Assembly (NCBI GenBank): GCA_017860255.1
Contig: JAFNAR010000008.1
Coordinates: 1-64,000, forward strand
Direction: 5' to 3'
Length of the DNA: 64,000 nucleotides
Origin: Bacteroidota bacterium
GTDB lineage: Bacteria; Bacteroidota; Bacteroidia; Bacteroidales; P3
In this document: positions 1-49,747 of the stretch, in pieces
Layout of the letters: each line of letters begins with the position of its first letter
Numbering within the stretch: position 1 is the first letter of the stretch
Program-made: the position numbers and the translations under genes
The notes under the pieces: model-generated
Told to the model about the DNA's origin: nothing
Databases searched by the model: none
The model's input: only the letters and a program-made list of their open reading frames with translations

Positions 1-93
1 ATATAAGGTGTAAACTAAAAATAGGACGATAAATCAAAAGTGTAAATATCATTTAGTACAAATTAATAATTTGTCAACCTTATTCAGGACGGG

Positions 94-282
94 TCAAATA
101 GGGAGTTGATGTTGGAATCATGGTATGATGTTCTCGAATTCATGGCATGAATTACTCGGAATCATGCCATGAATTGGTTAGAATCATGCCATGAATTGGT
201 TAGAATCATGCCATGAAATCAACTAAATCATGACATGAATTGGAGTAATTCATGCCATGAATCTGAGAACATCATGCCATGA
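94..282. repeat. Phased dyad array 1 (TCATGCCATGA, 22-bp pitch)
   Basis: Eight copies of an 11-bp palindromic motif, TCATG(C/G/A)CATGA with one TCATGGTATGA, start at 118, 140, 162, 184, 206, 228, 250 and 272, so every step is exactly 22 bp. The 11-bp spacers vary more than the dyads. A weaker element with TCAA/TTGA arms (94-109) lies one step upstream. Degenerate AT-rich elements centred near 298.5, 320, 341.5 and 363.5 (the last around AAGCTT) may continue the lattice. The array lies upstream of the likely promoter of the 622 gene. Function unknown. Confidence 0.9.
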
Positions 283-621
283 ATTGGAGATTAAAACGAA
301 GTTTAATTAGTTTTATACTTGATTTTGAGAGATTAAAACTTCTTTTTTGTAGGTTAAATTAAGCTTCTTTTTTAAGGTATAATTCATTTATATTTTTATA
401 CTTATTTTAGCCCTTGAAATATCTTTATTTTAAACCCCTAAAGACTAAGTTTGTTAATTGAAAATGAAAAGGTATTAAGTTTTTATTTTACCCTAATAAG
501 GTGGTTTTATCAAAAAACTATAATATTTTTGCATAAATTAATTAGAGATAAGAGAGAAATTAAGTGAAAGCGATTAATAACTCTTTGACAATCCCATTTA
601 ATTGGATTCAACTTATAAATT
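283..621. other. Spacer upstream of the GSCFA gene
   Basis: No gene is seen. The first 90 bases may hold decayed members of the adjoining dyad array. A possible Bacteroidetes -7 box, TATTTTTG, lies at 524-531 without a good -33 partner. It is about 90 bp before the start codon at 622. Confidence 0.5.
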
Positions 622-32509: not shown

Positions 32510-32743
32510 CAAAAAATATATTGAACAAAAAAAGAAAAGGGATAAGAAATATGGTTTAGGCTTCTAAATTGACTAAAAATTTGATTTTGCGATAGTAAAA
32601 AAGAATTATTGAAGCTATATTATGGGTTAAATTGTAGGGGAATAAGTGGATGAAAAATTAAACAAGGAGTTATTGAAATTTAATTAGCTTTTCCCAAGGG
32701 AAATTTATTTATAAACTTCCAAGCATAACTAAAATATAAATTT
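32510..32743. other. Spacer between nifJ and the T9SS paralogues
   Basis: No gene is seen. Two AT-rich dyads, TTTAGGCTTCTAAA (32555-32568, centre 32561.5) and AAAATTTGATTTT (32576-32588, centre 32582), are 20.5 bp apart and could be the remains of a phased array, but no further convincing members follow. A TTTCCCAAGGGAAA dyad lies near 32690-32703. Confidence 0.35.
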
Positions 32744-32754
32744 CATAAGGCTAA
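32744..32754 (-). other. Junction remnant of a further T9SS paralogue
   Basis: Immediately after the stop of the 32755 gene comes the same 8-bp linker (AAGGCTAA on the plus strand) that separates two of the three junctions in the row, followed by an ATG (32746-32744). The frame then ends after five codons (ATGAAATTTATATTTTAG). This looks like the start of a lost or degenerate extra copy. Confidence 0.55.
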
Positions 32755-33636
32755 TTATTTCTTAATTATCTTTCTAATTATGATATTATCTTTATGTTTA
32801 AGCTTTATTATATAGGCTCCTTCCTTTAGGAAATCTAAATTAATTGCTCTGTTATTATTTATTTCTTTTCTGAAAACTTCCCTTCCAAACAAATCAATAA
32901 TACTTAAACTTATTGGATATTTATCCGAACTAATATTTATTTCTTTATCAATTATTGTAGGATAGACTTTAATTTGGTTTTCTTCTTTTCTAGGATAATT
33001 TATGCCTACAATATTACAATAATTAAATTCAGGATTAGAGTATAGAACATTATCATTATAATAATAACATAATAATTTTTCTATAACTCCTACACCAAAT
33101 AATGATTCATATAATAAACCTGCCTCTAAACAACCTATCTTTTCAACCCAAGTCATATTAGAAATAAAATTTCCTGATAAAATAATTCTCTTTCTCATTT
33201 CATTATTGATTTGAATTGAATCTACACATACATTAAAAGAAAAAACTTCTTCATATATATTAAGGTTAAAAGTATCACCATTAGACAAAGAGAAATCATA
33301 TAATAAATTCTCTCCCAAGATAGAATCCATTCCAGAATGATAATATCTAACATAAGTCTTTTGATTTTCTTCTCTTATTAATGCGTGAAACTCTATATCA
33401 TCTGTTAGGGATAAATCATTATTAGTCCATACTTTTATATAATGTTTTGAATCAATAATTGTATCTCCTTTTAAGTGGATATAATAACTTGTTGGGATTG
33501 ATTCTGCAATAACCAATTCGTTATAAATTGACCAAATACTATTTGTGTCAACAATGGTATTTTGAGACTGAGAATAACTAATCTTGCTTGATAAACTTAT
33601 TAAGCAAATAGATAAAATGATTAATGTCTTTTTCAT
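32755..33636 (-). CDS. T9SS type A cargo, tandem paralogue 1 (long middle)
   Basis: A 293-residue protein. The signal peptide (MKKTLIILSICLISLSSKIS) and the C-terminal sorting domain (IKVYPTIIDKEINISSDKYP, then LSIIDLFGREVFRKEI and KHKDNIIIRKIIKK) are almost the same as in the three genes upstream. The middle (about residues 25-215) is shared only with the 34972 gene (type A: VDTN.IW, DTIIDSKHYIKVW, WVEKIGCLEAG). It would be exported through T9SS and attached to or released from the surface. Function of the middle unknown. The gap to the next gene is 8 bp. Confidence 0.85.
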   Translation of the reverse strand: MKKTLIILSICLISLSSKISYSQSQNTIVDTNSIWSIYNELVIAESIPTSYYIHLKGDTIIDSKHYIKVWTNNDLSLTDDIEFHALIREENQKTYVRYYHSGMDSILGENLLYDFSLSNGDTFNLNIYEEVFSFNVCVDSIQINNEMRKRIILSGNFISNMTWVEKIGCLEAGLLYESLFGVGVIEKLLCYYYNDNVLYSNPEFNYCNIVGINYPRKEENQIKVYPTIIDKEINISSDKYPISLSIIDLFGREVFRKEINNNRAINLDFLKEGAYIIKLKHKDNIIIRKIIKK

Positions 33637-33644
33637 AATGCTAA

Positions 33645-34262
33645 TTATTTCTTAATGATCTTTCTATTTATGAAAGTGTCTTTATGTTTAAGTTTTAATA
33701 TATAGGTTCCTTTCTTTAAGAAGTCTATATCAATAGCTCTGTTATTATATATTTCTTTTCTAAAAACTTCTCTTCCAAATAAATCAATTACATTTAAACT
33801 TATTGGATATTTATCCGAACTAATATTTATTTCTTTATCAATTATAGTTGGATAAATCTTAATAGAATTATTATTAAAAGTTGTTTTAGGAATATCTACA
33901 CCTGCTGTTAAAAACGAAGAAGAGTCACTTTTAATAATGGAAGTATCTGTTCTTACAAATGCTACCACCCAATATTGCTCTGGATTAGGATTGAAAAATA
34001 GAGTAGTATCAAAATTATCATTATTAATTGATAAATGTAGAAAACTTTGATAATAAACTCCTTTTATCTCCAATCCTTTTTCAATTATTGAGTCTGTTCC
34101 CTGAATAAAAGAAGCAAATATACTTGTATTGAACCCTTGAGGAAAGTCTTGAGTGATAGAGTCAATTTTTACTATTGGAGGAATGTAATCTTCTTGAGAA
34201 TAACTAATCTTGCTTGATAAACTAATCAAGAAAATAGATAAAAGGATTAATGTCTTTTTCAT
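33645..34262 (-). CDS. T9SS type A cargo, tandem paralogue 2 (short middle)
   Basis: A 205-residue protein with the same signal peptide (MKKTLILLSIFLISLSSKIS) and sorting domain as its neighbours. Its different, short middle (about residues 25-120) is shared in outline with the 34271 gene (type B: DSIIEKGLEIKG, NNDNFDTTLFFNP). The type B middle has the look of a small beta-sandwich. It is separated by 8 bp from the genes on either side, so all four genes should be on one transcript. Confidence 0.85.
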   Translation of the reverse strand: MKKTLILLSIFLISLSSKISYSQEDYIPPIVKIDSITQDFPQGFNTSIFASFIQGTDSIIEKGLEIKGVYYQSFLHLSINNDNFDTTLFFNPNPEQYWVVAFVRTDTSIIKSDSSSFLTAGVDIPKTTFNNNSIKIYPTIIDKEINISSDKYPISLNVIDLFGREVFRKEIYNNRAIDIDFLKKGTYILKLKHKDTFINRKIIKK

Positions 34263-34270
34263 AAGGCTAA

Positions 34271-34963
34271 TTATTTCTTTATTATCTTTCTATTAATAAT
34301 AGCGTCTTTATGTTTGAGATTTAATATATAGGTTCCTTTCTTTAGGAAGTCTATATCAATAGCTCTGTTATTATATATTTCTTTTCTAAAAACTTCTCTT
34401 CCAAATAAATCAATTACACTTAAACTTATTGGATACTTTTCCGAACTAATATTTATTTCTTTATCTATTATTGTTGGATATATTTTTACATCTAAACTTA
34501 AATCAGAAATCTCTTTAAGACCAACTCCAAATAAATATTGTTCAATAATTGTATCGCTGTAAAATGTATCAATTGTTGTTATTATATATGATTGAAAGTA
34601 AAGATTCCTATAGTCAGGAATAAAATATAATACTGTATCAAATTCTTCATTAATTATTGATACATAAGCTTCAGTTACTTTAATATTTGGATTATCTGGC
34701 AATGGGAAAAGAAGAATGTCTTGCCATTCATTATTCGTTGTAATATATATTCCTTTTTCAATAATAGAATCCGAAACAGAATTTAAACTTGAAAATACTT
34801 CTATTTTGTGGAATCTGTTTAGAACATTAGCAGTATCATATAAGTCATGTGGCGGATTCCACAACAATGAATCCAAGCTAACAATATTATTAACTTGAGA
34901 ATAACTAATCTTGCTTGAAAAACTAATCAAGCAAATAACTAAAATGAACAATACTTTTTTCAT
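34271..34963 (-). CDS. T9SS type A cargo, tandem paralogue 3 (short middle)
   Basis: A 230-residue protein with signal peptide MKKVLFILVICLISFSSKIS and the conserved sorting domain. The middle is type B like the 33645 product (DSIIEKGIYITTNNEW, INEEFDTVLYFIPDYRNLY). Its signal peptide is closest to that of the 34972 gene, while its C-terminal half is closest to 33645, so the copies look mosaic. The 8-bp linker AAGGCTAA follows. Confidence 0.85.
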   Translation of the reverse strand: MKKVLFILVICLISFSSKISYSQVNNIVSLDSLLWNPPHDLYDTANVLNRFHKIEVFSSLNSVSDSIIEKGIYITTNNEWQDILLFPLPDNPNIKVTEAYVSIINEEFDTVLYFIPDYRNLYFQSYIITTIDTFYSDTIIEQYLFGVGLKEISDLSLDVKIYPTIIDKEINISSEKYPISLSVIDLFGREVFRKEIYNNRAIDIDFLKKGTYILNLKHKDAIINRKIIKK

Positions 34964-34971
34964 AAGGCTAA

Positions 34972-35892
34972 TTATTTCTTAATTATCTTTCTATTTATGA
35001 TAGTATCTTTATGCTTAAGCTTTAATATATAGGTTCCTTTCTTTAAGAAGTCTAAATCGATAGCACTATTATAAAATATTTCTTTTCTGAAAACTTCTCT
35101 TCCAAATAAATCAATTACACTTAAACTTATTGGATACTTTTCCGAACTAATATTTATTTCTTTGTCAATAAGTGTTGGATAGACTTTAATCTCTTCATCT
35201 ATTTTAATTTCATCTAAGCCGTAAGTTACTAAACAACCTGTATAGGTGTTTATATAAAGATAATCTTCTCCTTGTTTGACACATAGAAGAGATGAACCTC
35301 CTGCATCTATTATGTATCCTGATTCTAAAAATCCTTGAATACTTCCAATACCTTCTATCCATGCAAAACGAAAGTACCCAGTTTCAGCATCATATAGGTC
35401 AAATATAATTCTTTTTAATAGTATTCCATTAACTTCAACTGAGTCTATTAAGTCAACTACTGCATTACTTGCCATAAAAAGACCATTGTATTCTCCTCCA
35501 AGAATAATTGGCTCATTAAATTCATCGCCAACATTGAGATTAAAATTATAAATGATTATTTCTTCATTAGATACATTATTATTATTTAAGAAATATAGAT
35601 ACACAATATTGGAATCTTCTCTAATTAGATGATTGCAAATCCAATTATTCATTGAAGTATCTTCCCATATACAATACTTATTTGTATATACTTTCTTGTA
35701 TGTCCTATTATCTACTATTGTATCTTCTCCTATTTTGTTAATAATTGTATATACTCCTGTTCCATATCCGTTATTCCTTAATGTATTCCATTGCTTTGTT
35801 GTGTCAACAATAGATTTATTAACTTGAGAATAACTAATCTTGCTTGAAAAACTAATCAAGGAAATAACTAAAATGAACAATACTTTTTTCAT
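34972..35892 (-). CDS. T9SS type A cargo, tandem paralogue 4 (long middle)
   Basis: A 306-residue protein starting MKKVLFILVISLISFSSKIS at 35892. A longer frame opening at 35931 would place 13 residues before the signal peptide and is rejected. The middle is type A as in the 32755 gene (VDTTKQWNTLRNNG, DTIVDNRTYKKVYTN, RFAWIEGIGSIQGFLESG). The conserved C-terminal sorting domain follows. It is the first gene of the row; a -7-like box (minus strand TATCTTTG, 35970-35977) lies about 80 bp upstream. Confidence 0.85.
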   Translation of the reverse strand: MKKVLFILVISLISFSSKISYSQVNKSIVDTTKQWNTLRNNGYGTGVYTIINKIGEDTIVDNRTYKKVYTNKYCIWEDTSMNNWICNHLIREDSNIVYLYFLNNNNVSNEEIIIYNFNLNVGDEFNEPIILGGEYNGLFMASNAVVDLIDSVEVNGILLKRIIFDLYDAETGYFRFAWIEGIGSIQGFLESGYIIDAGGSSLLCVKQGEDYLYINTYTGCLVTYGLDEIKIDEEIKVYPTLIDKEINISSEKYPISLSVIDLFGREVFRKEIFYNSAIDLDFLKKGTYILKLKHKDTIINRKIIKK

Positions 35893-40251: not shown

Positions 40252-40803
40252 TTATAGAGTATGAACAGCTTGAACTAATTCTTTTCCTGTTTGAACTGCT
40301 TTTAGGTTTTCTGGAATCATTCCATGATGACGTTCAGGAAGTGATTTCATAAGACCTTTTTCAATAAATTCTTCTGTAACTACAGGTTTTACTTTTAAGA
40401 AACCTCCAAGAACAATCATATTGAAAACTTTAGCTAATCCAAGATCTGCAGCTTTTTCAGTAGCAGCAATTTTATAGATGTTAATATCTGTACGTTTAGG
40501 AGGATTAGTTATTCCGTTTGGATCATATAATAAAACTCCTCCAGGTTTAACACTACTTTCAAACTTATCAAGTGATTGTTGATTAAGAATAATAGCTGTG
40601 TCAAATTGGCTGATAATTGGAGAACTGATTCTTTCATCAGAAATAATTACTGATACGTTTGCAGTTCCTCCACGCATTTCTGGACCATAAGAAGGCATCC
40701 AGCTAACTTCTTTATCTTGCATTGCACCTGAATAAGCAAGTATTTTGCCCATTGATAAAACTCCTTGTCCACCAAATCCGGCTATAATGATTTCTTCTGT
40801 CAT
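40252..40803 (-). CDS. 2-oxoacid:ferredoxin oxidoreductase gamma subunit
   Basis: A 183-residue subunit with the family motifs GFGGQGVLSMGKILAYSG and SWMPSYGPEMRGG. In the complex the gamma subunit contributes to CoA binding and the catalytic core. It is the last gene of a four-gene operon (ferredoxin, alpha, beta, gamma), 15 bp after the beta gene. The complex could be 2-oxoglutarate- or branched-chain-2-oxoacid-specific. Confidence 0.93.
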   Translation of the reverse strand: MTEEIIIAGFGGQGVLSMGKILAYSGAMQDKEVSWMPSYGPEMRGGTANVSVIISDERISSPIISQFDTAIILNQQSLDKFESSVKPGGVLLYDPNGITNPPKRTDINIYKIAATEKAADLGLAKVFNMIVLGGFLKVKPVVTEEFIEKGLMKSLPERHHGMIPENLKAVQTGKELVQAVHTL

Positions 40804-48230: not shown

Positions 48231-48304
48231 GAATTAAGTTAATAGTAAGGTTCTGATTTCAAAAGACTTTATCTTTTAACTTTAAAACCTTATTATTTTA
48301 TTCT

Positions 48305-48554
48305 AAGAGCTTATCTTTTTAAGTCTTTATAGTTATCTCATAAAACTTTTATAGTTATCTCAAGTTCAAAAAGTGCGACTTTCTTCCCAGAAAAGTCGCA
48401 CTTTTAGTCTAAAAAGTCGCACTTCCAAATCAAAAAGTCGCACTTTTTAATTGTTAGATAGTTATCATTAACCTTCGAGATAACTATCTTGGAGAAAAAT
48501 AATAGTGTTATTTAGAGAAATATTAATGTTATTCTATAAAATAATAATGTCTTT
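48305..48554. repeat. Phased dyad array 3 (mixed motifs, 21-22-bp pitch)
   Basis: Twelve elements with centres near 48310.5, 332.5, 354.5, 376, 398, 419, 440, 461.5, 483.5, 506.5, 527.5 and 548.5 (steps 21-23). In order: AAGAGCTTATCT; TATAGTTATC twice; AAGTGCGACTT; AAGTCGCACTT three times; GATAGTTATC; GATAACTATC; AATAGTGTTATT; ATTAATGTTATT; AATAATGTCTTT. Some members are reverse complements of others at their core. The phase is kept across the change of motif. Weaker elements may extend upstream to about 48241. No reading frame; it lies between two plus-strand genes, ending 56 bp before a promoter. Confidence 0.88.
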
Positions 48555-48609
48555 GAGGTAGGATTTCATTATCAAAAAGAAAAAAGATTTCGACAAAATG
48601 TAAAAAATA

Positions 48610-48641
48610 TTTGTCATAATAAAAAATAATTTATACTTTTG
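48610..48641 (+). promoter_or_regulatory. Promoter of the membrane protein/HTH operon
   Basis: TTTG (48610-48613), 20 bp, TACTTTTG (48634-48641): full consensus, 39 bp before the start at 48680. Confidence 0.75.
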
Positions 48642-49670: not shown

Positions 49671-49747
49671 GAAACTTGATTCTATTTTATTAAAACTTGA
49701 TTCTAATAAATTATTATTTGATTCCATTTTACTGAAACTTGATTTCA
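49671..49747. repeat. Phased dyad array 6 (GAAACTTGATTTC, 21-bp pitch)
   Basis: TTGATT cores start at 49676, 49697, 49718 and 49739, exactly 21 bp apart, inside longer near-palindromes with GAA/TTC arms (GAAACTTGATTCT, AAAACTTGATTCT, TTATTTGATTCCA, GAAACTTGATTTC). The array lies between the convergent terminators at 49405-49442 and 49779-49808. Because 21 is a multiple of three, an open frame on the minus strand reads through it as a seven-residue repeat (ESSF.K); I regard that frame as a by-product. Confidence 0.85.

Follow-up and report, generated by a model that had tools for sequence, protein, structure and literature searches.

Two described systems come closest to the repeats analyzed here. 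The BrickBuilt MITE of Porphyromonas gingivalis occurs at about 19 copies per genome and consists of tandem 23-nt units at intergenic sites, with an outer leader and tail, predicted long stem-loops, and a unit number that varies among strains (PMC4596501). The REP/BIME sequences of enterobacteria and pseudomonads are intergenic, multicopy palindromes arranged in regular clusters (PMC2817692), and the IS3-family elements IS1397 and ISKpn1 insert into REP palindromes (PMC1525189). In the literature on 21/22-bp intergenic arrays in Bacteroidetes, the relevant work we found was on BrickBuilt and REP only. Bacterial intergenic repeats are usually viewed as mobile leftovers or RNA hairpins; the pattern described below points instead to a binding array on double-stranded DNA.

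The window, a 64-kb stretch of DNA from a draft genome of 2.58 Mb in 72 contigs (G000), contains near its start eight palindromic dyads that begin at positions 118, 140, 162, 184, 206, 228, 250, and 272. Each of the seven intervals is 22 bp, exactly as a sequence-only reading of this DNA had reported. That reading let the array begin at position 94, which is 24 bp too early: the dyads span 118 to 282, preceded by the tip of an insertion sequence (1 to 96, a 100% match) and an outer unit without a dyad (97 to 117). Seven of the eight dyads are exact TCATGNCATGA, and the first copy is TCATGGTATGA. Exact TCATGNCATGA occurs at seven sites in the window, none of them outside the array; with up to one mismatch there are nine sites, compared with 2.8 ± 1.5 in shuffled sequences, and the only one outside the array, at 40317, is a chance site. 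The single pair of identical spacers noted earlier for 172 to 206 is real and lies at 173 to 183 and 195 to 205. The orthologous array in a relative, G002, has seven units rather than eight, and the alignment gap is a clean 22 bp. Together, the identical spacers and the additional unit indicate that a recent tandem duplication added one unit. Coordinates are collected in Table 1.

Table 1. Repeat features in the 64-kb window
Feature	Positions	Strand	Basis
IS3-type insertion sequence, right tip, truncated by contig start	1–96	-	Identical 93–96-bp tip at ten other sites; related intact copy with two IS3-type ORFs
Outer unit without dyad, in or near 22-bp register	97–117		Aligned outward flanks of related arrays; G002 ortholog extends outward here without the IS
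Core: eight TCATGNCATGA dyads, exact 22-bp spacing, 11-bp spacers	118–282		Motif scan and orthologous conservation
Additional 22-bp unit relative to G002 ortholog; placement within repeat arbitrary	184–205		Alignment gap, 8 versus 7 units
Right outer units, AAAACGAAGTTTAATTAGTTTTA type, mirror of left flank	283–370		Outward-flank alignment; outer limit approximate
Second array of class, dyad TTTTACGGCGTAAAA, period about 22 bp	28666–28789		Fold z −6.6
Nested, mirrored locus with several 21/22-bp unit types (ATAGTTATCT, AAAAGTCGCACTTTT, AATAATNNTGTTATT)	48266–48626		Repeat scan; whole-unit gains in G002
Directional 21-bp array, AAACTTGATTC plus variable half	49672–49744		Repeat scan

Several features go beyond the sequence-only reading: the array belongs to a multicopy family and to a wider 21/22-bp class, has outer units in the same register, is roughly mirror symmetric, is bordered on its left edge by an insertion sequence, and takes part in ongoing gain and loss of whole units. 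About 14 loci in G000 together account for 49 overlapping dyad pairs. Of ten other genomes in the genus, eight also have dyad pairs, as do two genomes of one sister genus, with none among 48 further relatives; TCATG arrays are absent from G001 and G007. Counted as ATGSCAT pairs at 22 bp, the motif appears 124 times in G000; 197 others from the order gave counts of 0 to 2, close to the level of a reversed control. A scan of 85,000 species genomes found the pattern to be almost confined to uncultured Bacteroidales, with a few single, chance-like matches elsewhere. Plasmid sequences gave no match to the array motif, and a plasmid-borne origin was rejected, as was a phage origin, the motif pair being found on one viral contig in 2.9 million. 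On viral contig L289 (5722 to 5799), a distance of 45 bp (22 + 23) separates the starts of the dyad pairs. Across 120 distinct arrays, unit number ranges from 2 to 8, and every array element examined is intergenic. At least 9 of 13 G000 loci retain the array at the same site in G002. UBA4866 carries whole-element twins of 279 bp (L086, 1741 to 2019 and 5098 to 5376) that are 99.6% identical and lie 3.36 kb apart; the sequences flanking them on either side are unrelated. Spread of the element within the genus appears to be occasional, with subsequent inheritance at the same site. All of these comparisons draw on draft assemblies.

The sequence-only reading had attributed the array to selection on the dyads and had suggested comparing dyads with spacers in orthologous arrays. 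We compared 24 orthologous array pairs, a list assembled by hand from automatic comparison, flanks, and spacers that covers a few species and includes partly non-independent pairs. The dyad arms differ at 12 of 1320 sites (0.9%) and the spacers at 124 of 1188 (10.4%), an inequality that favors selection on the dyads. When 34 pairs were compared automatically under looser criteria, some of them being paralogous or unequal in length, divergence was 1.5% for arms, 20.5% for spacers, and 14.3% for flanks. Spacers thus diverge at about the rate of flanking intergenic DNA, while dyads change 11 to 14 times more slowly. The spacing is fixed as well: the 120 distinct arrays, which come almost entirely from related uncultured Bacteroidales, contain 400 intervals, and all but one of these measure 22 bp. 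Sequence information in the spacers is limited to A/T-rich edges, and the same dyads recur at distant loci where the spacers differ. Internal units have arm mismatches about four times less often than terminal units (11/272 versus 28/184). Relative to G002, whole units have been gained or lost both at the window array, which has one more, and at the 48-kb locus, which differs by one 22-bp and one 21-bp unit. Units arise by duplication, after which dyads are held and spacers drift, in agreement with the sequence-only reading.

The central base of the dyad behaves differently from the arms. In the 24 orthologous pairs, 26 of 132 centers have changed, and 24 of these 26 changes are C↔G, compared with 8 of 90 among spacer changes involving C or G; A or T at the center is rare (18/520). 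A C↔G flip would be invisible to a two-fold symmetric protein, which would meet the same base pair either way. The flips amount to about 18% of centers, which exceeds the expectation from substitution alone and implies that palindromes are also subject to a mutational process of their own, hairpin template switching. The excess suggests inversion of dyads by template switching, a process that could help keep the arms matched.

An invariant palindrome, a fixed register, free spacers, a C/G-equivalent center, and a lack of orientation are what would be expected if a symmetric protein were bound once per dyad. We therefore favor, with moderate confidence, the explanation that a two-fold symmetric DNA-binding protein binds cooperatively along the array, which lies at the core of a repeat element dispersed over intergenic sites. 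One putative homodimer would occupy each 11-bp dyad, and the 22-bp register would bring neighboring dimers to almost the same side of the helix, where they could contact one another and bind cooperatively; spacers would be free apart from their A/T-rich edges. Against this explanation count the template switching described above and the fact that 22 bp slightly exceeds two turns of B-DNA (21 bp). The proposed role would be architectural or insulating, as has been proposed for BIMEs, rather than control of one gene set. The genes flanking TCATG arrays show no preferred orientation (++ 20, −+ 17, −− 16, +− 15), a spread over all four arrangements by which a terminator or promoter element was ruled out. 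Similarly, the regulon of a single transcription factor was rejected since neighboring genes lack a common function: those in G000 (ruvA, metG, ECF sigma, guaA, tonB, argS, clpS, dapB, hsdM, MFS, and GSCFA) have no functional theme, and no common neighbor gene was found among the array neighbors examined.

The main rival to a binding array is a non-autonomous mobile element, that is, a BrickBuilt-like MITE with an internal minisatellite, whose dyads would be subterminal transposase-binding sites and which would persist mainly by copying itself. We consider this account possible but doubtful. The many dispersed copies share outer units, the 279-bp twins demonstrate that whole elements can be copied, all cases examined are intergenic, and the same kind of element exists in P. 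gingivalis (PMC4596501). However, MITE copies decay, while the G000 loci retained in G002 have kept their dyads, and we argue that long retention in place with conserved dyads means that most copies are kept for function. Moreover, we identified neither terminal inverted repeats nor a target duplication at the arrays, and no transposase that would act as their partner. Around the cores, a different, outward-pointing unit continues the 22-bp register for about four units per side; when these outward flanks were aligned, no common terminal motif emerged, and similarity faded beyond about 90 to 110 bp. Nor is the window locus in G010 a clean empty site, since the core is absent there but outer units are present on one side. 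As to mobility of the arrays, we observed one near-identical 279-bp duplicate and no clean empty site with target duplication at the loci aligned. The two explanations could both hold if the binding array travels on a mobile element.

We also considered whether the conserved feature is a long hairpin formed by the mirror array, acting in RNA or single-stranded DNA as a terminator, an mRNA stabilizer, or an ssDNA structure. The spacers are roughly complementary about the middle of the array, which allows the whole window array to be folded as a single long hairpin (computed fold, −101.9 kcal/mol, z −12.9). Other arrays of the class have strong predicted folds as well, and mirrored spacers match more often than in permuted order (0.52 versus 0.43; 0 of 2000 permutations). 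Against this, the mirrored spacer positions of orthologs contain no compensatory double change (24 pairings broken, 28 gained), and mirrored units show no significant complementarity between their center bases (92/214 versus 84 ± 5), on which grounds a conserved hairpin was set aside. In addition, a quarter of arrays lie between divergent genes, and Rfam has no match in the window, which speaks against a known structured RNA. Selection on the hairpin is accordingly quite unlikely, and we take the hairpin to be a by-product of how the element is constructed, with the selected feature elsewhere. A functionless minisatellite, with units made and homogenized by slippage and palindromic dyads maintained through hairpin template switching, could account for whole-unit gain and loss between close relatives and for center flips above the point-mutation expectation, but it appears improbable given that homogenization would not stop at dyad edges, that spacers diverge freely beside invariant dyads, that distant loci can have identical dyads yet unlike spacers, and that the register is almost never broken (399/400).

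The insertion sequence at the left edge of the window bears a further relation to the arrays. Window positions 1 to 96 match a 93- to 96-bp sequence at ten other places in G000 with 100% identity, nine of them at contig ends. The G000 assembly yielded no IS3 transposase (rve), and the gene was read instead from a related intact copy in G004, which has two IS3-type ORFs and tips TGACCCGTCCTGAATAAAGTTGACA and TGACTTGTCCTGAAAAAAGTTGACA. The missing rve is probably due to collapse of identical IS copies, which appear to have broken the assembly at array loci. In a set of 30 non-redundant IS tips from the genus, an ATGSCAT pair lies no more than 300 bp away on the outer side of 18 tips, compared with 0.8% of sampled G000 positions, a genome-wide rate that would be roughly ten times higher for intergenic DNA only (about one tenth of the sequence). 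Two more tips adjoin arrays outside the ATGSCAT pattern (L181, L196); IS tips border 22-bp arrays of several dyad families. At least one insertion looks common to two species (L180, L183), which makes some of the events non-independent. Judged from these sequence positions, the arrays appear to serve as landing sites for the IS3-type element, a further case of such elements landing beside palindromic repeats.

The binding-array pattern of frozen dyads, frozen spacing, free spacers, and a C/G-neutral center recurs with different dyads across the genus. At least six are present (TCATGNCATGA, TATAATGGCATTATA, AAACAATGGCATTGTTT, AGACGGCGTCT, TTTTACGGCGTAAAA, and AAAGTGCCACTT), with RYGSCRY as the common form of the center, and outer units that look similar by eye adjoin cores with other dyads. 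Tandem-repeat scans, based on small samples for some genomes, revealed a sharp excess of 21/22-bp periods in the genus: 7 to 23 per 100 kb, compared with 2.7 per 100 kb and no 21/22-bp peak in the order's other families. Other genera of the same family have a weaker peak at 21. A census of 264 kb from G000 and 280 kb from G007 counted 62 such arrays, of which 57 lie between genes even though coding DNA makes up about 90% of the sequence. Only 5 of 50 of all 20- to 23-bp arrays in these two genomes lie between divergent genes, compared with 17 of 68 TCATG arrays, and this difference in placement between directional 21-bp arrays and TCATG arrays suggests that the class may not be functionally uniform.

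Further members of the class vary in form. Directional 21-bp arrays (TTAGAATCAAG) dominate in G007 (L156 to L165, L208 to L211) and are scarce there between divergent genes. Arrays of GACATGGGTATGTC units with mirrored spacers and a period of about 22 to 23 bp occur in G005 and G004 (L154, L181), and G054, from another family of the order, has 23-bp arrays with a palindromic ACAAGYTTGT core (L256, 8231 to 8298 and 9647 to 9736). The G002 intergenic region syntenic with the TTTTACGGCGTAAAA array of the window has TATAATG- and GAAATG-type arrays instead. The 48-kb locus may form a single hairpin of nearly 400 nt and lies just upstream of a Bacteroidetes-type promoter. A G002 segment of about 235 bp matches four successive places in window positions 32604 to 35190 and is thus repeated there.

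The diversity of dyads weighs against binding by one protein, as either several proteins are involved or the palindromes are kept by something else. In a broader and decidedly speculative form, the binding-array explanation would describe a genome-wide class of intergenic arrays in this Bacteroidales family, in which helical phase (21/22 bp) is fixed while the palindrome diversifies, and several parallel families, each with its own symmetric protein, organize or insulate the chromosome. Such arrays could bear on chromosome organization in a phylum where it is poorly known.

Plasmid iterons, with a spacing of about 22 bp, are in general terms also repeated binding sites two helical turns apart, but they are direct, lack palindromic symmetry, and belong to a single replication origin, whereas the arrays here are palindromic and dispersed on the chromosome. 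A CRISPR array was excluded on the basis that repeats and spacers are each 11 bp and spacers are related between loci, whereas CRISPR repeats are about 23 nt or more with unique spacers. With REP/BIME sequences the arrays have in common multicopy extragenic palindromes in regular clusters and their use as IS targets, including by IS3-family elements. However, REPs have a GTAG-type 5′ tag and a RAYT transposase, whereas the arrays consist of complete dyads at a fixed 22-bp spacing. Column frequencies of the 22-bp unit contain no GTAG/GTGG-type 5′ tag, and the RAYT domain (Y1_Tnp, PF01797) is present in 3 of 11 genomes and absent from G000 and seven others of the genus; its absence from G000 ruled out a REP/RAYT system. 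BrickBuilt differs in that its 23-nt units have no spacers, its leader and tail are non-repeated where the outer parts here continue the 22-bp register, and it has IS5-type terminal inverted repeats (GAGACCTTTGCA) where the aligned flanks here have no common terminal motif. On the other hand, both are intergenic, are hosted by Bacteroidales, and have tandem units of about 22 to 23 bp with one half conserved and the other more variable. The arrays most likely sit in dispersed elements that resemble BIMEs and BrickBuilt.
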